From Emcibacter nanhaiensis (GTDB lineage: Bacteria; Pseudomonadota; Alphaproteobacteria; Sphingomonadales; Emcibacteraceae): DNA of 64,000 bases. Below the pieces are notes generated by a model. That model saw only the letters and a program-made list of their open reading frames with translations, was not told where the DNA came from and did not search any database. The translations under genes and the position numbers were made by a program. Positions within the stretch are counted from its first letter, which is position 1, and every line of letters starts with the position of its first letter. Where the stretch lies: the NCBI RefSeq assembly GCF_006385175.1, contig NZ_VFIY01000018.1, forward strand, positions 1 through 64,000, written 5' to 3'. Shown in pieces: positions 3,880-48,974 of this stretch.

Positions 3880-4341
3880 GTGAGTAATTTCATTATTGAT
3901 TTTACGACTGATGATCTGACCAGCGACTATCAAAATACAATTTTGCAGTATTGGCACGAGATCAGAGGCGACAGGACAATGCCGGCGCGCAAGGATTTTA
4001 ACCCCCTGCATGTGCCGGATGCGCTGGGCAATCTGATGCTGATCGATGTGAAACATACCCCCCGGGATTACACCATCAGACTCATCGGCACCAATATCAC
4101 GGAACTGACCGGCAAGGACAATACCGGTCAATCCGCCTCAAGCTTCAGAGATGCCGCCGAGGTCGTTTCCCGATTTGATTGGATCCTCGAAAACAAGCAG
4201 CCCTATTTCAGCAAGGATGAGTTTATCTGGTCTTCACGGGACCGCCGAATTTATTCGGCCCTGGTCCTGCCCTTTTCCGAAAATGGCGAGGATGTCTCGA
4301 TCATCTTTTGCTGCCTGCACATTTACAAAGATAACGACTAG
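3880..4341 (+). CDS. Single-domain PAS_5 protein, divergent paralogue
   Basis: A 153-residue cytoplasmic protein made of one PAS_5 (PF07310-type) domain. It shares the family signature with the array at 13.8-17.3 kb: YWHEIRGDRTMPARKDFNP near the N-terminus, then a central TIRLIGTNI core, a WILENKQPY motif and a C-terminal VLPFSENGEDVS strand. It lacks the MFKSP start of the array members and is the most divergent of the seven paralogues. GTG at 3880 is chosen because AAAGGGGA lies seven bases upstream. There is no output domain, so it presumably senses or binds a partner. Its stop codon is inside a 22-bp tandem duplication. Confidence 0.8.
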   Translation: MSNFIIDFTTDDLTSDYQNTILQYWHEIRGDRTMPARKDFNPLHVPDALGNLMLIDVKHTPRDYTIRLIGTNITELTGKDNTGQSASSFRDAAEVVSRFDWILENKQPYFSKDEFIWSSRDRRIYSALVLPFSENGEDVSIIFCCLHIYKDND

Positions 4342-4365: not shown

Positions 4366-5664
4366 TTATCGAGCTATCCCAATGCCGAACCGCACCCGGG
4401 TTTCCTCACGGTTATAGGAAAGCATTTTCTCTCCATACCCGGTGACCAGCTGGGCCTGGAAATACAGGTCCGGATGATTGATAAACAGTTTGTTCAGCGG
4501 ATAGGTAAAATCAAGGCTTAAGAATCCCCGCCCGGTCTGGAAATTTCCCCTCAGGGCGGCGGCGATCTGGAAATCGTCAAGCTTCCCGAACCTGGCAACA
4601 AAATTCGTATGGCCCCTGTAATCGATAATATCGGGATTGTCCGACAGATCCCCTACATAGGTGTGAACTCCGGCTTCCAGCTCCAGGCTGTAACCATTGT
4701 CAAACTCAAACGTCACCGCCGGACGCACATAGAGCGTGTTTATGCTGCGGGATTCTTCTCCTCCCCGGCCGTTTGATTCATGCAAAAACCCGAATTGCAG
4801 ATCCAGCCGGGTATCTTCAGACAGGAATCCGTCGCCTACATCTTCCCAGAGATAGAAAAACTCCGGTTTGAAATTGGTGTCTGCGAACGGTTTCGAGGCT
4901 GCTGCCAAATCCCAGAAGTTCAACTGAGTATAGGAAAAATGGAGACCTTCGATCCAGGAGCGGTTGACAGGCGCTTCATTTCGGTCTGCTCCGAACAGCC
5001 GGTATTTGAAACTGATCTGAAATTTCGCGTTAAAACTGTCACCGCCGAGCAGAAAATAGGATGGTTCATAGGGGGAGAGATTGTCGAAATAGAGCCCCTT
5101 CTCTTCCTGCAGGTCCTCTATATCCTTCGGGCCGAGAACGATATATTCGTCCTCTTTGTCGTCCTGTTCCCGATCGCCCCGGGATTTCCCCTCCGGCTCC
5201 TGGTCAGCATCCTCCGCCTTTTGTATTTCCTGCTGTCCTGTTTTTGCGACTCCTACCATAAGGAAGGGGCTGTTGCCGTCGCCTTCTGCCGGAATAATTT
5301 TCAACGGCCCGGGCCTGATGTCTGCCGGCAGCAGCAGGAAGTATTCTATTTTTCTGAAACTGCCCGGATCAAGGATCAGGCTGCCGGCCTGTTCCTGGCC
5401 GGATAGCTGCAGCTGCCCGACCTGGCTATACAGTCCATATTCGAGGTAGACCTGGATATTTTGTTCGATCCGATGTTCCTGCCTGTCGGCGGAGGAGTTG
5501 TTCATCACCAGCAGGGTCAGGGGAATAGCCCGGCCGCCCGTCACCGGATGATCAGGGACAATCAACAGTTTTTCGACCGTCGCACAAGCCGGAGCCGCGC
5601 CAAGATACAGGACGCTAAAGCACAGCAGAAACAACTTCCTGCAGCAAAGATTACCGGGCACCAT
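4366..5664 (-). CDS. pldA: Outer-membrane phospholipase A (OMPLA) with extra N-terminal domain
   Basis: An integral outer-membrane enzyme that hydrolyses phospholipid acyl esters. The catalytic residues are visible as H295, S297 (in LHESNGRGG) and N309 (in SRSIN), with the same H-x-S-x11-N spacing as E. coli OMPLA (H142/S144/N156 of the mature form). The barrel fills roughly residues 200-432. A signal peptide (MVPGNLCCRKLFLLCF to ACA) is followed by an unusual stretch of about 160 residues that starts as a beta-rich domain and ends in an acidic, charged linker around residues 150-175. ATG at 5664 is preceded by GAAGGAAA; a TTG start at 5679 is possible. It is transcribed convergently with the PAS_5 gene. 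Confidence 0.88.
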   Translation of the reverse strand: MVPGNLCCRKLFLLCFSVLYLGAAPACATVEKLLIVPDHPVTGGRAIPLTLLVMNNSSADRQEHRIEQNIQVYLEYGLYSQVGQLQLSGQEQAGSLILDPGSFRKIEYFLLLPADIRPGPLKIIPAEGDGNSPFLMVGVAKTGQQEIQKAEDADQEPEGKSRGDREQDDKEDEYIVLGPKDIEDLQEEKGLYFDNLSPYEPSYFLLGGDSFNAKFQISFKYRLFGADRNEAPVNRSWIEGLHFSYTQLNFWDLAAASKPFADTNFKPEFFYLWEDVGDGFLSEDTRLDLQFGFLHESNGRGGEESRSINTLYVRPAVTFEFDNGYSLELEAGVHTYVGDLSDNPDIIDYRGHTNFVARFGKLDDFQIAAALRGNFQTGRGFLSLDFTYPLNKLFINHPDLYFQAQLVTGYGEKMLSYNREETRVRFGIGIAR

Positions 5665-5746
5665 TGACGTTTCCTTCAACCAGAGATCCTTATTTTTGTC
5701 ACAGGCTATACGTTATTTGTGAAAATTCAAATGATCCGCGCAAAAT

Positions 5747-11778: not shown

Positions 11779-12897
11779 ATGGATATTTTCGAGGTTGATA
11801 CCGTTGTCATCGGTGCCGGTGTGGTGGGACTTGCCTGTGCCAGGGCGCTGGCCCGCGCCGGACATGAGGTCTATCTGCTGGAGAAGGAAAACACCTTCGG
11901 CACCGGCATCAGCTCCCGAAACAGCGAAGTCATTCATGCCGGCCTATACTATCCCCCGGACAGCCTCAAGGCGGAACTATGTGTGCGCGGCAACAGGATG
12001 ATGCGCCAGTTTTGCGACGACTTTCATGTGGACTACCGCATGCCGGGCAAGCTGGTGGTCGCGACAACGGAAGAGGAAATCGCCAAACTCGAAATCATCA
12101 AGGCCAACGCCGAACAGTGCGAGGTTACTGACCTGACAATTTTAAACAGGCAGGAATGCCGTGTGCTCGAACCGGAGCTGGAGGTGTTGGCCGCGCTCCA
12201 TTCCCCCTCCAGCGGCATCGTCGACAGCCACGGACTGATGCTGGCCCTGCTCGGTGATGCGGAGGCTCATGGCACGGTTGCGGCCTACGGGGCGGAAATG
12301 ACGGGAATATCCACCGCAGCCGGTGGCGGTTTTATCGTCAGTCGGGACGATCCTTCCGGCGACAGGATTGAAATCCTCTGCCAATACCTGGTCAATGCCG
12401 CCGGACTGGGGGCGACCCGGCTAGCCTCAACATTCCGGGAACTCGACCCGCAAACCATCCCGCGCACCTGGTTCGCCAAGGGCAACTATTTTTCCTATGC
12501 CGGGAAACTGCCGTTCCGGCATTTGATCTATCCGGTGCCGACAAAAGGCAGCCTCGGCACCCACCTGACCCCGGACCTGGGTGGACAGGGCAAATTCGGC
12601 CCCGATATTCAATGGGTTACGGAGGAAAATTACGATGTGGATGAAAGCCGTAAGCCGCTGTTTGTGAACTCAATCCGCAAATACTGGCCGGGCCTGGATG
12701 AAAACCGGCTGCAGCCTGCCTACAGCGGCATCCGCCCCAAGGTGGTCGCGCCGGACATCGCCAGCCAGGATTTCATTATCCAGGGTCCACGGGATCACGG
12801 CCTCCAGGGCTTTGTCAACCTGATGGGAATTGAATCCCCGGGCCTGACCAGTTCCCTGGCCATTGCCGAAAAAGTTGTGGCAAAGATAGGGGATTAG
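11779..12897 (+). CDS. FAD-dependent oxidoreductase, L-2-hydroxyglutarate-oxidase-like
   Basis: A 372-residue DAO-superfamily flavoprotein. The dinucleotide-binding motif VVIGAGVVGLACARALARAG is at the N-terminus, followed by E in LLEKE for the ribose. SSRNSEVIHAGLYYPP is the signature of the L-2-hydroxyglutarate dehydrogenase/oxidase (LhgO) group, and YSGIRPK and GIESPGLTSSLAI near the end also fit. It probably oxidises a 2-hydroxy acid at the membrane surface. AGGTGAT precedes the ATG. Its stop codon overlaps that of the convergent GntR-family regulator, a plausible partner. The exact substrate is not certain. Confidence 0.8.
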   Translation: MDIFEVDTVVIGAGVVGLACARALARAGHEVYLLEKENTFGTGISSRNSEVIHAGLYYPPDSLKAELCVRGNRMMRQFCDDFHVDYRMPGKLVVATTEEEIAKLEIIKANAEQCEVTDLTILNRQECRVLEPELEVLAALHSPSSGIVDSHGLMLALLGDAEAHGTVAAYGAEMTGISTAAGGGFIVSRDDPSGDRIEILCQYLVNAAGLGATRLASTFRELDPQTIPRTWFAKGNYFSYAGKLPFRHLIYPVPTKGSLGTHLTPDLGGQGKFGPDIQWVTEENYDVDESRKPLFVNSIRKYWPGLDENRLQPAYSGIRPKVVAPDIASQDFIIQGPRDHGLQGFVNLMGIESPGLTSSLAIAEKVVAKIGD

Positions 12898-13592
12898 TCC
12901 CCTTTAGTCGCCCCGTCCTGGTTGGCGGAAATAAAGTCGGTAACAATATCTCCGACCGTCAGGATATGCTCGGCCATGAGGCGGGTTGCTTTTTCTACGT
13001 CCCGGTCGCGGCAGGCCTGCAGGATGTCGGCATGTTCCTCACGCCCCTTTTCCGCCTGCCCTTCCATGGAAATCTGCAGTCGCTGGTAGCGATCCGTATT
13101 GTCATGCAGGGAACGGCAGAGCGCCATGGTGATCGGCGTATTGCCCGGGCTGTACAGTGTCCAGTGGAATTTCCAGTTGAGCTCGGACCAGCTGGCGGTG
13201 TTCACACCGGAGTCCACAGCCTTGTCATATACGGCCAGGGCGTCTTCAGCATCCTCGATGTCCTTGTCGGTCATATTGGGAATGGCATGTTCCAGCATAT
13301 CGCATTCAAGCATGGCGCGGAGACGGAACAATTCACGGACTTCGTCAACGCTCAGAGGTTTTACTACCGCCCCCCGGTGAGGCTGAAATTCGACCAGGCC
13401 ATCGCCTTCCAGAAGAAACAACGCCTCGCGAACGGGAATACGACTTGTCCCCAGGTCCTTGGCCAGCGCATCCTGACGCAAACGTGTCTCGGCCGGATAC
13501 TGCCCGGCGATAATCCGTTCCTTCAGGATTTCATAAATATTGTCTACCGCAGTCTTTTTGGACAAGACCCTCTGCCCAGACTTGATGTTCAT
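12894..13592 (-). CDS. GntR-family transcriptional regulator, FadR/FCD subfamily
   Basis: A 232-residue DNA-binding regulator. The N-terminal winged helix (AVDNIYEILKERIIAGQYPAETRLRQ region, residues 14-75) includes the GntR signature RIPVREALFLLEGDGLV. The C-terminal all-helical FCD domain contains ELFRLRAMLECDMLEHA, the D...H...H metal or ligand site and an AEHILTVGDIV tail. GAGGAAGC precedes the ATG. It ends on the stop of the convergent flavoprotein, whose substrate or product may be its ligand. This is inference from position only. Confidence 0.88.
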   Translation of the reverse strand: MNIKSGQRVLSKKTAVDNIYEILKERIIAGQYPAETRLRQDALAKDLGTSRIPVREALFLLEGDGLVEFQPHRGAVVKPLSVDEVRELFRLRAMLECDMLEHAIPNMTDKDIEDAEDALAVYDKAVDSGVNTASWSELNWKFHWTLYSPGNTPITMALCRSLHDNTDRYQRLQISMEGQAEKGREEHADILQACRDRDVEKATRLMAEHILTVGDIVTDFISANQDGATKGD

Positions 13593-13801: not shown

Positions 13802-14260
13802 ATGTTCAAATCGCCTATAGATAACTCAGATTTAGATCTGGCTCCCCTGAAAGCACTGTTCAACTATTGGCAGAAAATCAGGGGAGAGCGGGATATGCCA
13901 GCCAAAGCGGATTTCTCGCCAGCGGCCGTCCCTAAACTTCTTCCCTATATCGCCCTCTTTGAAGTTGAAGAAAATCCCCGACGGTACCGTACTCGACTGG
14001 TCGGTTCAAAGATTACTGAGATCTTTGGATTGAACATAACAGGGGCTTATACAGACGAGCGTCCCGAATTCGACGAATTCATGAAACGCCAAAGTTGGCT
14101 GGTGGAGAACAAAACACCCTATCTCTACATTGACTCGCTTGAATGGATTAACAAGGAATATCTTCATTACAAGGGCTTGGGCTTGCCTTTCTCCGATGAC
14201 ATGGAAAATGTAAACTTTATCATGTACGGGGTTTTCAACTATTCTCCCGACACCCGTTAA
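13802..14260 (+). CDS. Single-domain PAS_5 protein, array member 1
   Basis: A 152-residue PAS_5 protein. It starts MFKSPIDNSD, like the other members, then shows FNYWQKIRGERDMP, ENPRRYRTRLVGSKI, WLVENKTPYLY and LGLPFSDDMENV, the conserved elements of the family. It has no output domain, signal peptide or membrane segment. The frame is open from 13742, but ATG at 13802 matches the paralogues. No good ribosome binding site precedes it. A 189-bp AT-rich gap to the next copy leaves room for a separate promoter. Confidence 0.85.
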   Translation: MFKSPIDNSDLDLAPLKALFNYWQKIRGERDMPAKADFSPAAVPKLLPYIALFEVEENPRRYRTRLVGSKITEIFGLNITGAYTDERPEFDEFMKRQSWLVENKTPYLYIDSLEWINKEYLHYKGLGLPFSDDMENVNFIMYGVFNYSPDTR

Positions 14261-14449
14261 AGAGGCGGGTTTCAGGTTTCTGCGGGATGTTGCCCATCTA
14301 AAATCCGTTTGCTGCATGGAAAATCTGCACATACAGAGACAAAATCAATGTATTACTGTCTTCTGATGTTTAATTATTGTATACCTTATACCAGCTAAAC
14401 TACTTAAAGATAAAAATTAGGGGCCAACATCTCTGGAATACTGCGAGTA

Positions 14450-14932
14450 ATGTTCAAGTCACCTGTAAAACTATCCGATATCGAGCCGGAGCCTCTTCAA
14501 AAACTATTCAGCTATTGGCAAAAGATAAGGGCGGACCGCAAAATGCCTGCCAAACAGGATTTTAACCCATCGGATGTGCCATCATTGTTACCCTACATCA
14601 CCTTGATCGATGTCGAAGAAAATCCGCGTCGCTACCGCACACGGCTGGCCGGCACAGAAAACACCCGGGTTCTCGGTTTCGACCCAACCGGCCGATATTT
14701 TGAGGAGACACCTCAACTATCCGGTGCGATCAAAAGGTTTACCTGGCTGGTAGAACATAAGGAACCCTACCTCTACAGGGGTTCGCTCAAATGGTCTGAC
14801 AAGGACTTCCTGGACTACTATAGTATTGCGCTCCCTTTTTCTGATGACGATAAAAATGTAAACATACTCTTGTTCGGGGTGTATTATCTGTTCATCGAAG
14901 AAAGTGAACATGGGATGGAGCATAATGTATAA
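14450..14932 (+). CDS. Single-domain PAS_5 protein, array member 2
   Basis: A 160-residue PAS_5 protein starting MFKSPVKLSDIEPEPLQ, with FSYWQKIRADRKMP, ENPRRYRTRLAGTEN, WLVEHKEPYLY and ALPFSDDDKNVN. The variable central segment differs from its neighbours. The C-terminus (EESEHGMEHNV) is longer than that of most copies because it runs into the next gene: its last 8 bases overlap the start of member 3, with ATGTATAA shared. That overlap suggests translational coupling of the two. Confidence 0.85.
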   Translation: MFKSPVKLSDIEPEPLQKLFSYWQKIRADRKMPAKQDFNPSDVPSLLPYITLIDVEENPRRYRTRLAGTENTRVLGFDPTGRYFEETPQLSGAIKRFTWLVEHKEPYLYRGSLKWSDKDFLDYYSIALPFSDDDKNVNILLFGVYYLFIEESEHGMEHNV

Positions 14933-15404
14933 ATCACCGGTTGTTGCTGAAGATATAAAACCGGATCATCTGAAAGAGCTTTTCATATACTGGCAAAAAA
15001 TCAGGGGCAATAAACCCATGCCGAGCCGTGCAGATTTTCATCCGGAAGAACTTCCGGCGGTCCTGCCACATATTGTCCTCTTCGACGTCAGCGACAAAAA
15101 ACCCTACCGTTATTTCACCCGCCTGGTGGGCACGGAAACCGTCAGAGCCATGGGGTTTGATTTCACCGGAAAATACCTTGATGAAATCCCCTCACTTTCC
15201 GCCGTTCAGGAGAGGTTCGACTGGATTTCTGAAAACGGAACTCCCTATTATTATCAGGGAAAACTGGTGTGGTCGGAAAAATCATATATGGATTATTGCA
15301 CCCTTGCGCTGCCCTTTTCCAACGATGGTAAAAAGGTGAATATCCTGATGTACGGAACCGATTACTATTTGCCAGACGACCACCCGGAACGATGGTATTC
15401 CTGA
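14925..15404 (+). CDS. Single-domain PAS_5 protein, array member 3
   Basis: A 159-residue PAS_5 protein beginning MYKSPVVAEDIKPDHLK, the only array member with MYKSP in place of MFK. It has FIYWQKIRGNKPMP, a one-residue insertion in KKPYRYFTRLVGTE, WISENGTPYYY and LALPFSNDGKKVN. The ATG at 14925 lies inside the end of member 2 with GGAG five bases upstream. An earlier in-frame ATG at 14904 is less likely given the paralogues. Both genes should be on one transcript. Confidence 0.85.
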   Translation: MYKSPVVAEDIKPDHLKELFIYWQKIRGNKPMPSRADFHPEELPAVLPHIVLFDVSDKKPYRYFTRLVGTETVRAMGFDFTGKYLDEIPSLSAVQERFDWISENGTPYYYQGKLVWSEKSYMDYCTLALPFSNDGKKVNILMYGTDYYLPDDHPERWYS

Positions 15405-15553
15405 CAGCGCAAATGCACAAACCTGGATAAAAACAACAAGTTGGTAATGTCCTGCACAGAGGAAAACCGAATTCATACAATATTTACTTTAACTTAAATT
15501 CTAACCCACTAAAATAATTCAGGGACAAACATACTGCGGAGGCGGGGACTTAA

Positions 15554-16033
15554 ATGTTCAAATCCCCCATTGAACTTTCAGACATTGAACCAAAAGCCCT
15601 TCGGGACCTGTTCATATACTGGAACAAAATCAGAGGCGAAAAATCCATGCCGTCAAGAAAGGATTTCCGCCCCAGCGATGTACCGCGCCTTCTGCCCCAT
15701 ATAGTCATGGTGGATGTGGAACAGGACAGTGGTCGTTATCTCACCCGGCTGGTCGGCACAGAGACCGTGAAAGCCATGGGGATCGATCTGACAGGCAGGT
15801 ATGTCAACGACGTTCCACAAATGTCGGTTGTCCTGGAACGATATCAATGGATCGTAGAGAATAAAACCCCCTATATCTATACCGGACAGCTGGCCTGGTC
15901 CGAGAAATCATATCTGGAGTATTTTGCCCTGGGACTGCCGTTATCAGACGATGACAAGAGGGTCGACATCATCATGTGGGGGCTGGTCTATTATTTTCCA
16001 AGCGAGCAAAGAACCCGCTTTCCCATAGAATGA
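15554..16033 (+). CDS. Single-domain PAS_5 protein, array member 4
   Basis: A 159-residue PAS_5 protein starting MFKSPIELSDIEPKALR. It shows FIYWNKIRGEKSMPSRKDF, SGRYLTRLVGTETVKAMG, WIVENKTPYIY and LGLPLSDDDKRVD. GGAGGCGGGG nine bases before the ATG is the clearest ribosome binding site in the array. About 150 bases separate it from member 3, and a further 209 AT-rich bases follow before member 5. Confidence 0.85.
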   Translation: MFKSPIELSDIEPKALRDLFIYWNKIRGEKSMPSRKDFRPSDVPRLLPHIVMVDVEQDSGRYLTRLVGTETVKAMGIDLTGRYVNDVPQMSVVLERYQWIVENKTPYIYTGQLAWSEKSYLEYFALGLPLSDDDKRVDIIMWGLVYYFPSEQRTRFPIE

Positions 16034-16242
16034 GAGCAGAGCTGCCCAAACACTTCTCCTGACACTCAACGAAACTGTTTTTCCAGTTCCGAGGCCATGC
16101 AAGAACAACCTGTCGTTTACGGGGCTTACCCCGGCTGATGAAATAGTAACGAAAAAAAATTCTCTCCTTCAGGAAAAGCTGATAAACTCGCAACACTTAA
16201 AAACAGAAGAGCGGAAACGGCACCTGCCAACTAGTTGTATAG

Positions 16243-16716
16243 ATGTTCAAGTCACCTGTCACACCAGAAGATATTCCCCCCGAAGAACTGAAGGAACTTT
16301 TGCGCCTGTGGCAAAAGATAAAAGGTGAAAAATTCATGCCCACCCGCAAGGATTTTAATCCCGCGGCGGCGACACGCCTTTTGCCACATATCTCGCTGGT
16401 AGATGTGGAGAGCAGTCCCCGGCGTTACCGTTTCCGGCTGGTAGGGTCCGCCACCGTAAAAGCCATGGGACGGGATGTCACCGGCAAATATATGGATGAG
16501 ATTCCGGGCATGGAGAATATGAAGGAACGCTATAACTGGCTGGTGGAAAACATGGTCCCCTATCTTTACAAGGGACAGCTGGTCTGGTCGGAGAAAAACT
16601 TTCTCGACTATTTTGCCCTCGGGCTGCCGTTTTCTGAAGATGGTGAAAACGTCAGCCTTATCATGTATGGCATGTATTATCTGTTCCCGGGTGACGAGCG
16701 AACCATTATGCCCTGA
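16243..16716 (+). CDS. Single-domain PAS_5 protein, array member 5
   Basis: A 157-residue PAS_5 protein starting MFKSPVTPEDIPPEELK, with LRLWQKIKGEKFMPTRKDF, SPRRYRFRLVGSATVKAMG, WLVENMVPYLY and LGLPFSEDGENVS. It shares the KIKG, RRYRFRL and FSEDG variants with member 6, so these two look like the most recent duplication. No clear ribosome binding site is visible before the ATG. Confidence 0.85.
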   Translation: MFKSPVTPEDIPPEELKELLRLWQKIKGEKFMPTRKDFNPAAATRLLPHISLVDVESSPRRYRFRLVGSATVKAMGRDVTGKYMDEIPGMENMKERYNWLVENMVPYLYKGQLVWSEKNFLDYFALGLPFSEDGENVSLIMYGMYYLFPGDERTIMP

Positions 16717-16775
16717 GGACCGGCGCCCCTCTCCTCCCAAGCAGCAGATACAGATTTCCCCCCACGTCCAGAATG

Positions 16776-16791
16776 TTATTTTTCCGTTAAC
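16776..16791 (+). promoter_or_regulatory. Near-consensus CtrA-type site upstream of array member 6
   Basis: TTAT, seven bases, then TTAAC: one mismatch from TTAA-N7-TTAAC. It is 60 bases before the ATG of array member 6. Weak on its own; listed because a perfect site precedes the distant paralogue at 3880. Confidence 0.25.
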
Positions 16792-16850
16792 CTGTAGCTG
16801 CTAGACAGAGATATTTGTAACTGAAAGTATTGTTCACAGGTTAGGTTTTA

Positions 16851-17339
16851 ATGTTCAAACACCCTCTGGAAGCCTCGGATATTCCGCAGGAGGAGCTGAA
16901 GGAACTTTTCCTTCACTGGCAAAAAATAAAGGGCGATAAATTGATGCCCGCGCGCAAGGATTTCAATCCTGCCGACGTGCCAACCCTGTTACCCAATATT
17001 TTGCTGGCCGATGTTGAACAGGCCCCGCGCAGGTACCGTTTCCGTCTGATCGGCACCGCCGTAACCCGCGCCATGTCCCGTGACTCTACAGGCAAATATC
17101 TTGACGAGGTGCCTGGCACAACAGCGATGGAAGAACGATGGAACTGGCTGGTGGAGAACAGGAAACCCTATCTTTATGAGGGCGACCTGGTCTGGTCAGA
17201 AAAATCTTTTCTCGGATATTATGCCCTCGGCCTGCCTTTTTCGGAGGATGGCACCAATGTCTCGCTGTTGATGTATGGTCTCTATTACATGATCCCGAGA
17301 GACCAGCGGACAATTGCCCCCAAAGACTTGCAAAACTGA
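16851..17339 (+). CDS. Single-domain PAS_5 protein, array member 6
   Basis: A 162-residue PAS_5 protein starting MFKHPLEASDIPQEELK, with FLHWQKIKGDKLMPARKDF, APRRYRFRLIGTAVTRAMS, WLVENRKPYLY and LGLPFSEDGTNVS. It is the closest relative of member 5 in the array. The array ends here: the molybdate ABC transporter ATPase gene converges on it with 8 bases between stop codons. Confidence 0.85.
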   Translation: MFKHPLEASDIPQEELKELFLHWQKIKGDKLMPARKDFNPADVPTLLPNILLADVEQAPRRYRFRLIGTAVTRAMSRDSTGKYLDEVPGTTAMEERWNWLVENRKPYLYEGDLVWSEKSFLGYYALGLPFSEDGTNVSLLMYGLYYMIPRDQRTIAPKDLQN

Positions 17340-17347
17340 CAGCGGCT

Positions 17348-18436
17348 TTACTGAACGACAGCAACCGATTTGATCTGAGCCCAGACCTTCATGCCCGCGG
17401 CCAGCCCAAGTTCCGCCACCGAACGGCGAGTCAGGCGCGCCAGCAGGATTGTCTCACCGGCTTTCAGGTAAACCATGGCAAGGGCTTCATCGGGCCTGGT
17501 TTCAATTTTATCAATTTCTGCTGGCAGGCGGTTCAGGATACTGCTGTCAGTCTGATTGCCAAGTGCAATACTGACATCCCGCGCCAGCACCCTGAGCCGG
17601 ACATCTTCTGTACCTTCCCTGTCCTGTACACAGAGTCTGCCGCCGGGAAACGCCACGGTCATCAGTTGCCATTCCGGCTCCCGTTCGACAACAGATCCCT
17701 CGATTATCGTGCCGACGTCTTCCCCGGGCTCCCCCGTCAATCCGGACAGGTCCTGCAAAACACTGTGAAAGGAACCTTCGGTCTTTACGCGTCCCTCTTC
17801 CAGAACCACCACATGGTTGGCCAGGCGGGTCAGTTCCTGCAGAGAATGAGTTACATAGACTACCGGCAGGCTGAGTTCCTCCCTGAGGTGTTCGAGATAG
17901 GGCAGGATCTCCTGTTTACGGCCCTGGTCCAGGGCCGCAAGCGGTTCATCCATCAGCAGCAGGTCGGGCCGGATCAACAGCGCCCGGGCGATGGCCACCC
18001 GCTGTTTCTCGCCGCCCGACAGGGCTGCCGGATAACGGTCCATAAAACGGGAAAGCCCGAGCAGTGAAATAACCTTTTCGAACTCGTCCTTTTCTGCCGT
18101 TGTCGCCGACCGGCGGAGAGCATAGTTAATATTTCCCCGCGCTGTCAGATGGGGGAAAAGATTGGCTTCCTGGAAAACATAGCCGACTTTCCTTTTATGC
18201 ACCGGAATGAATATATTCCCGTCCTGCCAGACCCGGTCACTGAGACGCATGACGCCGCCGGGAACCCGTTCCAGTCCCGCCATGCAGCGCAAAAGTGTGG
18301 TTTTCCCCGAACCGGATGGGCCAAACAGAACAGAAACCCCCTGACCGGGCAATCTCAGATCAACGTCCAGCTGAAACTCACCCGCCTGCCCGCGGTCAAG
18401 CCTGAAGCATGACTGTATCACCGGCGCCATCGTCAT
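17348..18436 (-). CDS. modC: Molybdate ABC transporter ATP-binding protein ModC
   Basis: The cytoplasmic ATPase that powers molybdate (or tungstate) import. The Walker A motif GPSGSGKTT is at residues 39-47, the signature LSGGE at 139-143, and Walker B LLLMDE at 159-164 with the D-loop ALD following. The C-terminal third is a Mop/TOBE molybdate-binding domain, seen in EIDKIETRPDEALAMVYLKAG and the SVAELGLAAGMKVWAQIKSV end, typical of ModC. The 362-residue length fits. Its ATG overlaps the modB stop by 4 bases (ATGA), so the two are translationally coupled. Confidence 0.95.
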   Translation of the reverse strand: MTMAPVIQSCFRLDRGQAGEFQLDVDLRLPGQGVSVLFGPSGSGKTTLLRCMAGLERVPGGVMRLSDRVWQDGNIFIPVHKRKVGYVFQEANLFPHLTARGNINYALRRSATTAEKDEFEKVISLLGLSRFMDRYPAALSGGEKQRVAIARALLIRPDLLLMDEPLAALDQGRKQEILPYLEHLREELSLPVVYVTHSLQELTRLANHVVVLEEGRVKTEGSFHSVLQDLSGLTGEPGEDVGTIIEGSVVEREPEWQLMTVAFPGGRLCVQDREGTEDVRLRVLARDVSIALGNQTDSSILNRLPAEIDKIETRPDEALAMVYLKAGETILLARLTRRSVAELGLAAGMKVWAQIKSVAVVQ

Positions 18437-46873: not shown

Positions 46874-47287
46874 TCAGACGGCAATGGCCGCCGCATTGAG
46901 GAGGGCGACGGAGATCTTGCCGGCAAACAACAGCAGCGCCGGGCCGATCTCGTTGTTCTCGATCCGCCGGCCCAGGTTATCGATCACCAGATTGGCGACA
47001 AAAAAGGCCAGGAGTTGAATCACCAGGATAACAACACCCCAGATCAGGATATCCCACAGCGACACGCTCCCGGCCAGGCATACCGCCAGCGGGATGGCCA
47101 AGCCGAGGATCCCGGCGGACAGCGAGATCGCCGCCGCCACATTCCCCTGGCGCACCAGTTCCAGTTCCCGGTAGGGTGTGACTTTCTCATAGATATAGAC
47201 CGCCGCCACCAGCAGGAGTACGGCGAGGCCAAAGTGGGTGATAAAATAGGGAAAGCCGATGATCAGGCTGTCCAGTACTGCTTGCAT
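46874..47287 (-). CDS. DUF350 membrane protein
   Basis: A 137-residue inner-membrane protein with four predicted hydrophobic segments, the pattern of the DUF350 family: VYIYEKVTPYRELELVRQGN, AAISLSAGILGLAIPLA and LVIQLLAFFVANLVIDNL are conserved. Its function is not established. It starts a short unit followed by the trypsin-like protease. Confidence 0.85.
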   Translation of the reverse strand: MQAVLDSLIIGFPYFITHFGLAVLLLVAAVYIYEKVTPYRELELVRQGNVAAAISLSAGILGLAIPLAVCLAGSVSLWDILIWGVVILVIQLLAFFVANLVIDNLGRRIENNEIGPALLLFAGKISVALLNAAAIAV

Positions 47288-47340
47288 GATATGTCCCCGA
47301 TTGTTGAGGAAGCTATCTTAGCGTGCTGGACGGTCCGGGC

Positions 47341-47370
47341 AATAAAAAAGCCGCCCGGTAAGGAGCGGCT
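47341..47370 (-). terminator. Terminator of the broken gene at 47471-48006
   Basis: AGCCGC and GCGGCT stems (47349-47370) with TTTTTTATT following on the reverse strand. It lies about 100 bases after the last codon of the broken gene and before DUF350. Confidence 0.65.
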
Positions 47371-47470
47371 ATCCAGAAGAAGGACATTGTTTGGAACTTC
47401 TGTGTATTTGAAATCTGTATTTTAAAGCCTGCGATAGGACTACGATCTATGATAAAAGCTGGAACAGCAA

Positions 47471-48006
47471 CTATTTATGGCAACTTCCCATTACCTTACT
47501 AATTGCCTCTTTAGCTCCATTTAAAGTGAATTTTGCTGTAGATTTCTCAAATTCATAATCCGTTAGCCTGATAATCACAGTCTCTTTTCCTTCGAGTAGT
47601 GCTTTTACAAAGGGACTCTCATAATCATTTTTAAATAGCAGCGTTTTAGAAGGTCTCATTAAAACAGTGACTGATGGTTGAGAGTCAACTCGATATTCAA
47701 AATTACCTTTTGTAGCCCTTACCATATTTCCAATATATTTTCCCGTTGAGACTTTATATTCAAAATAATTATTGCTCCCGCAATTAATCGCAATGAATCC
47801 GTTCTTAAGCCCCCCTCTGCGACAACCAATGCCGTTTCCAATATTTCATCAGTAAATTCATCGACATTTTTTACATATTGCCAACTCTCAGTGTTCAGCG
47901 CATCTTGTCCATGCACCACATTGGAAAAAAACAAAAGAACCATCACGATCACTTGCTTCATTAGCTTTTCATAAAGTGAAAAGGCAATAGTCAAAGTCCT
48001 CTTCAT
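47471..48006 (-). pseudogene. Exported protein gene split by a frameshift in a G6 run
   Basis: Two adjacent reading frames form one protein when a single base is added to the run of six G (six C on the + strand, 47810-47815). The upstream frame (from 48006) gives a signal peptide (MKQVIVMVLLFFSNVVHG) and the start of the mature domain up to VVAEGG, then runs out of frame to a stop at 47719. The downstream frame continues LKNGFIAINCGSNNYFEYK and on through VRATKGNFEYRVDSQP to GSCHK at 47471. The joined product has paired Cys and a fold like small exported proteins of the TagO/VasN type, but I cannot assign a family. AAGGAGG precedes the start. Confidence 0.75.
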
Positions 48007-48024
48007 AATTTCTCCCTCCTTAAT

Positions 48025-48255
48025 TTATTTGTTGTCATCAATCGCTGTCTTTATTTCTTGCCAAAGCGAGTTATTCTTAAACCTCTCATACAACTCATCC
48101 TCTGTAACTGATACTTCGACAGGATTCACTCCATCACGCAGTACCCTTACTCCCTCGTTCTCACGTCTCAACGTCAATGTTCCGTCAGCATTCTTGTAGA
48201 TAAATATTTCTTCCTTACTGCCCATATGATGAAAAATTTGCTTGCGATCGCTCAT
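48025..48255 (-). CDS. Small protein of unknown function (76 aa)
   Basis: A 76-residue, acidic protein that I do not recognise. It begins MSDRKQIFHHMGSKEEIFI, has a beta-rich centre (TLTLRRENEGVRVLRDG) and a charged helical end. No signal or membrane segment. It is 18 bases upstream of the frameshifted gene on the same strand, so the two may form a unit. Both lie in DNA more AT-rich than their surroundings. Confidence 0.55.
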   Translation of the reverse strand: MSDRKQIFHHMGSKEEIFIYKNADGTLTLRRENEGVRVLRDGVNPVEVSVTEDELYERFKNNSLWQEIKTAIDDNK

Positions 48256-48270
48256 ATCTTATCTCCCCAA

Positions 48271-48304
48271 AAGAAAAAGCCGCCCAGCACAACGCTGGAC
48301 GGCT
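48271..48304 (-). terminator. Terminator of rpsD
   Basis: AGCCGCCCAGC and GCTGGACGGCT pair with one G-T mismatch around a 5-base loop, followed on the reverse strand by TTTTTCTTTT. It lies just after rpsD. Confidence 0.85.
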
Positions 48305-48356
48305 TCTATTATTTACTTCTAACGGAAATACTACAAGTAGAAAGAATCTACCTGGA

Positions 48357-48974
48357 TTAACGTGAGTAGAACTCGACGATCAGGTTCGGTTCCATCTGCA
48401 CCGGGTAAGGAATTTCATCCAGAACCGGCTGGCGCAGGAAGGTCACCTTGTGGCCGTTGTCTTCAACGGACAGATATTCCGGAACGTCGCGCTCGGCGCT
48501 TTCCAGACCCTGGACCACCATCGGGATCTGACGTGATTTCTCACGGATCTCAATCACATCGCCCGGCTGTACCTGGTAAGAAGGGATATCCACTTTCTGG
48601 CCGTTCACTCGCACATGGCCGTGGCTCACGAACTGACGGGAGGCAAACACGGTCGGGACGAACTTGGCGCGGTAGACAACAGCGTCCAGACGACGCTCCA
48701 GCAGACCAACCAGGATCTCACCGGTGTCGCCTTTCTGACGGTCGGCTTCCTTGTAGATGCGTTTGAACTGTTTTTCAGTGATGTTGCCGTAGTAGCCTTT
48801 CAGCTTCTGTTTGGCGCGCAGCTGAATACCGAAGTCGGACAGTTTGCCGCGACGGTTCTGGCCGTGCTGGCCCGGGCCGTATTCGCGTTTGTTGACGGGA
48901 GACTTCGGACGACCCCAGATGTTTTCGCCCAGCCGGCGGTCGATTTTATATTTGGCTTGAATTCGTTTTGTCAT
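48357..48974 (-). CDS. rpsD: 30S ribosomal protein S4
   Basis: A 205-residue ribosomal protein that nucleates 30S assembly. [23 protein letters not shown] is the start and the S4 RNA-binding domain reads [20 protein letters not shown] and [16 protein letters not shown]. The length fits the alphaproteobacterial protein. It is a stand-alone gene with its own promoter and terminator, not part of the alpha operon as in enterobacteria. Confidence 0.98.

Follow-up and report, generated by a model that had tools for sequence, protein, structure and literature searches.

The 64,000-nucleotide stretch of Emcibacter nanhaiensis DNA analysed here (contig NZ_VFIY01000018.1, positions 1 to 64,000; hereafter the window) carries six consecutive genes on the forward strand, each encoding a small protein made of a single PAS_5 domain: gene 1 (13802–14260; 152 amino acids (aa); 42.1 bits against Pfam PF07310), gene 2 (14450–14932; 160 aa; 42.0 bits), gene 3 (14925–15404; 159 aa; 37.6 bits), gene 4 (15554–16033; 159 aa; 46.0 bits), gene 5 (16243–16716; 157 aa; 35.6 bits) and gene 6 (16851–17339; 162 aa; 38.4 bits). 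The reading frames of genes 2 and 3 share 8 bp, and the remaining intergenic gaps measure about 190, 150, 210 and 135 bp. A separate PAS_5 gene, also on the forward strand, starts at 3880 (GTG) or 3841 (TTG), ends at 4341 and scores 47.2 bits. The original prediction, made from the letters of the window, had placed the six open reading frames (ORFs) of 152–162 aa at these positions and assigned them to PAS_5 as single-domain proteins. The ORFs are there, and the assignment stands: all seven window proteins match PF07310 at 35.6–47.2 bits, over its gathering cut-off of 22 bits, and the listing at E ≤ 1 contains no further Pfam family for any of them. Each array member consists of one PAS_5 domain without an output domain, and all seven window proteins belong to the Pfam family with no family-level difference. 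The shared motifs quoted in that prediction are looser than it had them: the start MFKSP occurs in four of the six array proteins (MYKSP in gene 3, MFKHP in gene 6), the core RRYR likewise in four (YRYF in gene 3, GRYL in gene 4) and LGLPFS exactly in three. The variants KIKG, RRYRFRL and FSEDG are indeed common to genes 5 and 6.

In a family tree of 87 of the 99 extracted proteins (score of at least 85 bits and length of at least 130 aa), the six array proteins fall into one clade of the window's own genome (100/98), together with five dispersed copies: a pair on contig C8, a pair on C19 and a single gene on C9 (C9:6534). The window's genus is represented by one genome in the sample, and 'this genome only' may therefore mean its genus. 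Within the clade, gene 5 is sister to gene 6 (100/96) and gene 1 to gene 2 (98/93), pairings that match what tandem duplication predicts. Gene 4 is the array member nearest to the five dispersed copies, weakly in this tree (97/29) and at 97/74 in a second tree of 60 domain-trimmed proteins (31 of the 87 plus 29 from the wider class). The branching points to tandem amplification at this locus, with some copies dispersed. Another 33 proteins (31 of genus g2, two of g5) represent a separate expansion with a clade of its own (97/96).

The gene at 3880, which the original prediction had counted as a divergent seventh copy, is a real PAS_5 gene that falls outside the array lineage: its protein is of another, older PAS_5 lineage and groups with G002_C1_801418 (100/91). 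Its neighbour on the reverse strand (4369–5679) resembles phospholipase A, with 93.1 bits for NF008031 where the cut-off is 369. Elsewhere in the genome, C5:564357 groups with G002_C1_2655530 and others (96/88 in the 87-protein tree, 83/47 in the 60-protein tree). A HIT-domain gene lies upstream in the four Pfam-tested relatives of this group, and C5:564357 itself is preceded, at about 0.75 kb, by an ORF carrying a HIT motif, so this copy looks old and positionally kept.

Divergence within the array is deep. The six proteins share 47–68% pairwise identity, and synonymous sites are saturated in 10 of the 15 pairs; the remaining five give synonymous divergence (dS) of 1.37–3.08 and ratios of non-synonymous to synonymous divergence (dN/dS) of 0.13–0.22, values that are rough because dS above 1 is unreliable. 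By comparison, the first PAS_5 copies of C8 and C19 differ at a dS of 0.19. The array is old and under purifying selection, not recent. Genes 5 and 6 are the youngest pair, and their sisterhood agrees with the original prediction; the late duplication that it proposed for them does not fit 68% identity and a dS of 1.37.

The same prediction had singled out a variable middle segment, and here the result depends on the comparison. Residues 68–103, a helical part of the structural model described below, average 1.37 bits against 1.11 bits for the rest of residues 14–147 in nine clade proteins. Within the clade alone the excess is marginal (p = 0.067 for 68–103; permutation p = 0.068 for 77–103). 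Against ten paralogues from genus g2 it is clearer (p = 0.005 with the nine proteins, 0.02 with the six array proteins), and the ratio was attained by none of 300 non-redundant nine-protein subsets of the 33-protein sister clade, whose identity is similar (53% versus 50%). The segment thus stands out against similarly diverged relatives. These 300 subsets overlap and the region was picked after inspection of the profile, and we treat the raised divergence as a lead and not as a test fixed beforehand. Variability is higher still in the C-terminal tail and in loop 57–60. The pattern at 68–103 would fit tuning of ligand or partner specificity.

An AlphaFold model of gene 4, built from an eight-sequence alignment (m543d05e757d2; pLDDT 89.8, pTM 0.85), suggests a PAS fold for the array proteins, gene 4 being the one member covered. 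A Foldseek search of the PDB with this model returned PAS, LOV and bacteriophytochrome domains (best E = 8.8e-4, two at E ≤ 0.001), VIA-align gave Z = 9.6 with the PAS domain of Rv1364c, and the PDB matches listed are PAS-type domains, mainly PAS, LOV and photoactive yellow protein (PYP); a Z near 9 is modest by the alignment tool's own grading. By sequence, no PDB chain was found at E ≤ 1. The resemblance to PYP lies in a stand-alone PAS domain with N-terminal helices, and the top PYP entries align to the model at Z = 8.7–9.2 over 108–112 residues; identity is 7–11%, however, and the window proteins have no conserved cysteine. The conserved chromophore-binding cysteine that marks LOV and PYP proteins has no invariant counterpart in the seven, and none of the 28 invariant columns of their alignment holds Cys or His, so there is no common site for flavin–Cys, coumaroyl–Cys or haem–His chemistry.

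The closest functional precedent is MopJ of Caulobacter crescentus. As described in PMC4432633, MopJ (CCNA_00999) is a single PAS_5 (pfam07310) domain of 165 residues; it associates with DivJ, influences DivK and DivL, and increases CtrA. Orthologues are named there in Brucella, Agrobacterium and Sinorhizobium. The array proteins share the build, one PAS_5 domain without an output domain, at 152–162 residues. The NCBIfam MopJ equivalog model NF051868 detects homology in all seven window proteins, with scores of 63.3–78.1 bits for the array and 56.1 bits for the 3880 copy (cut-off, 200); the highest score in this genome is 84.6, at C5:564414 (copy C5:564357). The link to MopJ drawn in the original prediction is thus borne out at the level of the broad family, given the PAS_5/pfam07310 assignment in the same paper. 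No protein in the genomes of 60 relatives reached the cut-off, nor did any in 192 genomes of the class (best 145.8, with at most 17 candidates scored per genome). The Caulobacter control does pass, so the cut-off is strict, and the paper names orthologues in other genera. The 60-protein tree, which does not include MopJ itself, places its 31 family proteins in one clade (99/98) and the four sampled proteins taken as most MopJ-like, by their high scores, in a separate one (100/99). The array proteins are distant homologues of MopJ with a like architecture, which fall below its equivalog line and sit apart from the sampled proteins that most resemble MopJ; they differ from it also in standing six in tandem, with neither GANTC nor a CtrA-type pattern upstream of most of the genes.

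The regulatory comparison rests on 200-bp upstream regions and raw counts. GANTC occurs upstream of one of the six array genes and 10 of the genome's 29 PAS_5 genes. The six array regions, one of them falling within gene 2, contain no TTAA-N7-TTAA, which we take to be a CtrA-type pattern; a single TTAACC half-site precedes gene 6. Elsewhere the full pattern lies upstream of 4 of the 29 PAS_5 genes (C18:3880, C5:564357, C19:15216 and C15:266498). Between 13590 and 17460, sigma-70-type sites number 8 (shuffle mean 4.5, s.d. 2.1) and terminators 6 (shuffle mean 4.2, s.d. 2.4), neither clearly above expectation. The gaps of about 135–210 bp ahead of genes 2, 4, 5 and 6 point to separate expression of most members. 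A promoter motif common to the clade was considered and dropped: a MAFFT alignment of upstream regions holds no shared element except among the repeat copies of C8, C9 and C19.

PAS_5 genes are numerous in this genome, with PF07310 matching at 28 places (27 over the cut-off) and a profile of the window proteins finding 29. Besides the run of six there are runs of four (C15:265812–268370), three (C5:648046–649934) and two (C18:470663–471621, adjoining a glutamate–cysteine ligase gene), a further pair near the ends of C8 and C19, and the start of another copy at the end of C9. C8 and C19 have 1742 bp in common at 98.6% identity, and the last 60 bp of both equal the first 60 bp of C9; the repeat probably broke the assembly, which leaves the true copy number uncertain. 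The repeat lies at L060:9212–10953, L061:8915–10656, L062:1–60 and L063:8590–8814 (ends of C19, C8 and C9); it consists of the PAS_5 pair and, after it, the gene carrying an HD-GYP motif, nearly identical in its copies, and the start codon of the first PAS_5 gene marks where C19 becomes similar to C8. C19 (L065:8583–9026) and C9 (L063:3356–5258) also carry related genes, of 782 and 608 aa respectively, at 78–79% DNA identity, and the C19 gene contains an internal tandem repeat.

Local expansion of PAS_5 genes is not peculiar to this locus, contrary to the original prediction, which had called it unusual. PF07310 counts range from 0 to 9 in 31 genomes of the same family and from 0 to 17 in 28 of the same order (several incomplete); by matches to the window profile, the second-ranking genome in the family has 12 (G004), among the matches listed. 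In the class sample, PAS_5 occurs in 151 of 387 genomes, with no match in the other 236, and about 65 have at least 10 matches; these counts are lower bounds, as at most about 10 candidates were scored per genome. Three class genomes rescored in full gave 44, 41 and 28 matches; they had been selected for many candidates and few contigs, not at random, and at least one gene was counted as two matches (G376, 3047349 and 3047685). Seven of the 31 family relatives have runs in the fetched regions, of two genes in G001, G002, G008, G010, G020 and G028 and of three in G016. Four-gene clusters occur in G039 of the same order, where they span 3.6 kb, and in two genomes of the class, G228 (3.3 kb) and G427 (2.1 kb); those of G039 and G228 each contain a gap of about 1.3 kb. 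The runs in relatives are minimum lengths, as nearly all matches below 88 bits were left out of the fetch, and matches above 90 bits at G006:C39, G007:C362, G015:C55, G016:C125, G019:C182, G024:C12 and G027:C279 were likewise unfetched. PAS_5 multiplicity and clustering recur, and the run of six is the longest among the matches listed. The other clusters resemble it as local tandem duplications, but they are shorter and lie at other loci; those of family members have a separate origin in the tree, which does not include the G039, G228 and G427 clusters.

The array is flanked on the left by a divergent GntR/FCD regulator gene (12894–13592, reverse strand; Pfam GntR 57.1 bits, FCD 92.5 bits) and on the right by a convergent ORF for an ABC ATPase (17348–18436, reverse strand), ModC-like by sequence reading and context, beyond which lie ModB- and then ModA-like genes, also named by reading. 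The window's lowest-G+C 1.5-kb stretch falls in the array (43.3% at 13501, against a window mean of 56.2%), and the array genes themselves have 45.5–51.9% G+C. A second low-G+C stretch lies near 47250; the region of about 47290–48350 has low G+C and few coding stretches of at least 120 aa, and is bounded by an ORF (46874–47287) and a gene that reads as ribosomal-protein-S4-like (48357–48974). Counting the window's own genome, the ModB right flank was found in 17 of 32 genomes and an LhgO-like left flank in 12. None of the relatives has a listed PAS_5 match within 10 kb of either, the nearest being at 12.8 kb (G005:C9). The two array flanks stand side by side in no genome, so no empty site can be read. 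The original prediction had named scattered singletons without conserved synteny as the result that would speak against it, and about half of that picture was found: the relatives' fetched genes lie elsewhere, as singletons, pairs and one triplet.

Among the dispersed sisters, the C19 pair lies between an upstream methyl-accepting chemotaxis protein (MCP) gene and a downstream HD-domain gene that carries an HD-GYP motif. The C8 pair has the same HD gene downstream, and one small ORF separates C9:6534 from an usher/PapD/SCPU cluster; on the opposite side of C9:6534, at a distance of about 4 kb, is a PAS histidine kinase. Across the family, release factor 3 (RF3) is a frequent neighbour: of the 30 genomes that have an RF3 match, 17 have a PAS_5 gene directly downstream of it; the linkage is absent in nine, the window's genome included, and four were unjudged, three of them at a contig end. 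RF3-linked PAS_5 genes (for example, L103:8451–10037 and L110:391–1977) include members of two deep branches of the tree. Among 11 scanned neighbours of relatives' PAS_5 genes, eight match a family (four HIT, and RF3, UppP, RecQ and nitroreductase). No constant partner gene is seen, as would be expected for free-standing adaptors; by the same token, genome context supports a signalling partner weakly. The genome also holds a match to PF10090 (HPTransfase, 90.4 bits), which we take to be the ChpT family, so part of the CckA–ChpT–CtrA relay is likely to be present.

The array is real: an old expansion, at lineage level, of a protein kind already known, MopJ-like in build, and by analogy with MopJ we infer its function. 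The likeliest reading, which we consider about an even call, is that its six soluble one-domain PAS_5 proteins, products of an old expansion specific to the lineage, act as sensory adaptors on signalling proteins. Each protein, presumably cytosolic, would use its PAS domain to sense a ligand or the state of the cell and, following the MopJ precedent, might dock on signalling proteins such as histidine kinases, cyclic di-GMP (c-di-GMP) enzymes or chemoreceptors; the set would then provide a number of adaptors, each specific to its input, that serve the same hubs or related ones, which would control motility, surface life or the cell cycle. Consistent with this are the PF07310 matches and sub-cut-off MopJ homology of all seven window proteins, the PAS/PYP-like model, the clade shared with dispersed copies (100/98), the low dN/dS, the diversified segment at 68–103, the PF10090 match and the siting of dispersed sisters near MCP, HD-GYP-motif and usher/PapD/SCPU genes. 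A more specific version is possible but doubtful: that the members form a diversified panel of input-specific PAS adaptors serving kinase or c-di-GMP hubs in common, each with a helical face suited to its own ligand or partner on a sheet that has been kept, much as in a receptor family, with sisters moved beside chemotaxis, HD-type and pilus genes.

Several results weigh against an adaptor role. No window protein reaches the MopJ equivalog cut-off (NF051868, 200 bits), and the upstream regions give no sign of mopJ-type cell-cycle control over the array as a set. No signalling gene adjoins the array itself; the HD gene at C8 and C19 belongs to one repeated stretch, counts as a single case and could result from the assembly; and none of the eight family-assigned neighbours in relatives is a signalling gene, the other three having no match in one library. 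The dN/dS values are rough, as noted above, and the partners and ligands of the array proteins are putative.

Other explanations draw on the same evidence. Tandem duplication recurs in the family and four-gene clusters exist elsewhere, as would be expected if the copies were redundant products of gene dosage or drift that share one function. This is unlikely: identity is 47–68%, dS is saturated in 10 of the 15 pairs and dN/dS is low in the other five, and one part of the fold shows raised divergence, features that together argue for separate, kept functions. Nor do we think it probable, to a similar degree, that the members assemble with one another into a self-contained homo- or hetero-oligomeric sensor complex: PAS domains often dimerise and the six genes are adjacent and co-directional, with genes 2 and 3 overlapping, but the members differ widely and the dispersed sisters occur singly or in pairs without the others.

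That the array proteins are true MopJ orthologues controlling CtrA through DivJ, DivK and DivL would suit their family and build, the NF051868 matches of all seven and the PF10090 match in the genome; with all seven scores far under the equivalog cut-off and the four most MopJ-like proteins sampled (100/99) outside the clade of the 31 family proteins (99/98), we regard it as quite improbable. Least probable of all is a set of cofactor-based sensors of light, redox state or gas, similar to LOV, PYP or haem-PAS proteins. The top structural matches do include PYP, LOV domains and the haem PAS domain of Aer2; the 28 invariant columns speak against a shared cofactor site, although individual members could still carry one.

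MopJ is the only PAS_5 protein with a described function that we found in the literature searched, yet there are genomes with more than 40 PAS_5 matches, and no paper on PAS_5 arrays was found in that literature, which covered few subscription papers. The PAS_5 family was already known and is many-copied in part of the class; the run of six is the longest among the matches listed, and on one face of the fold its copies appear more divergent than expected. With its sisters, the array offers a compact natural set for learning what stand-alone PAS proteins sense and touch.

A different arrangement occurs at other loci, where a PAS_5 protein with an extra C-terminal region adjoins a large gene that reads as NAD-glutamate-dehydrogenase-like (L072, L198 and L199). 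The PAS_5 proteins with this region lie at L072:6735–7955 (G000 C5:84731), L194:4397–8881, L198:2447–3937 and L199:2397–3710. The open frame is 1138–1495 aa long in G015, G006, G011 and G021, and in G015 it contains a very long acidic stretch.

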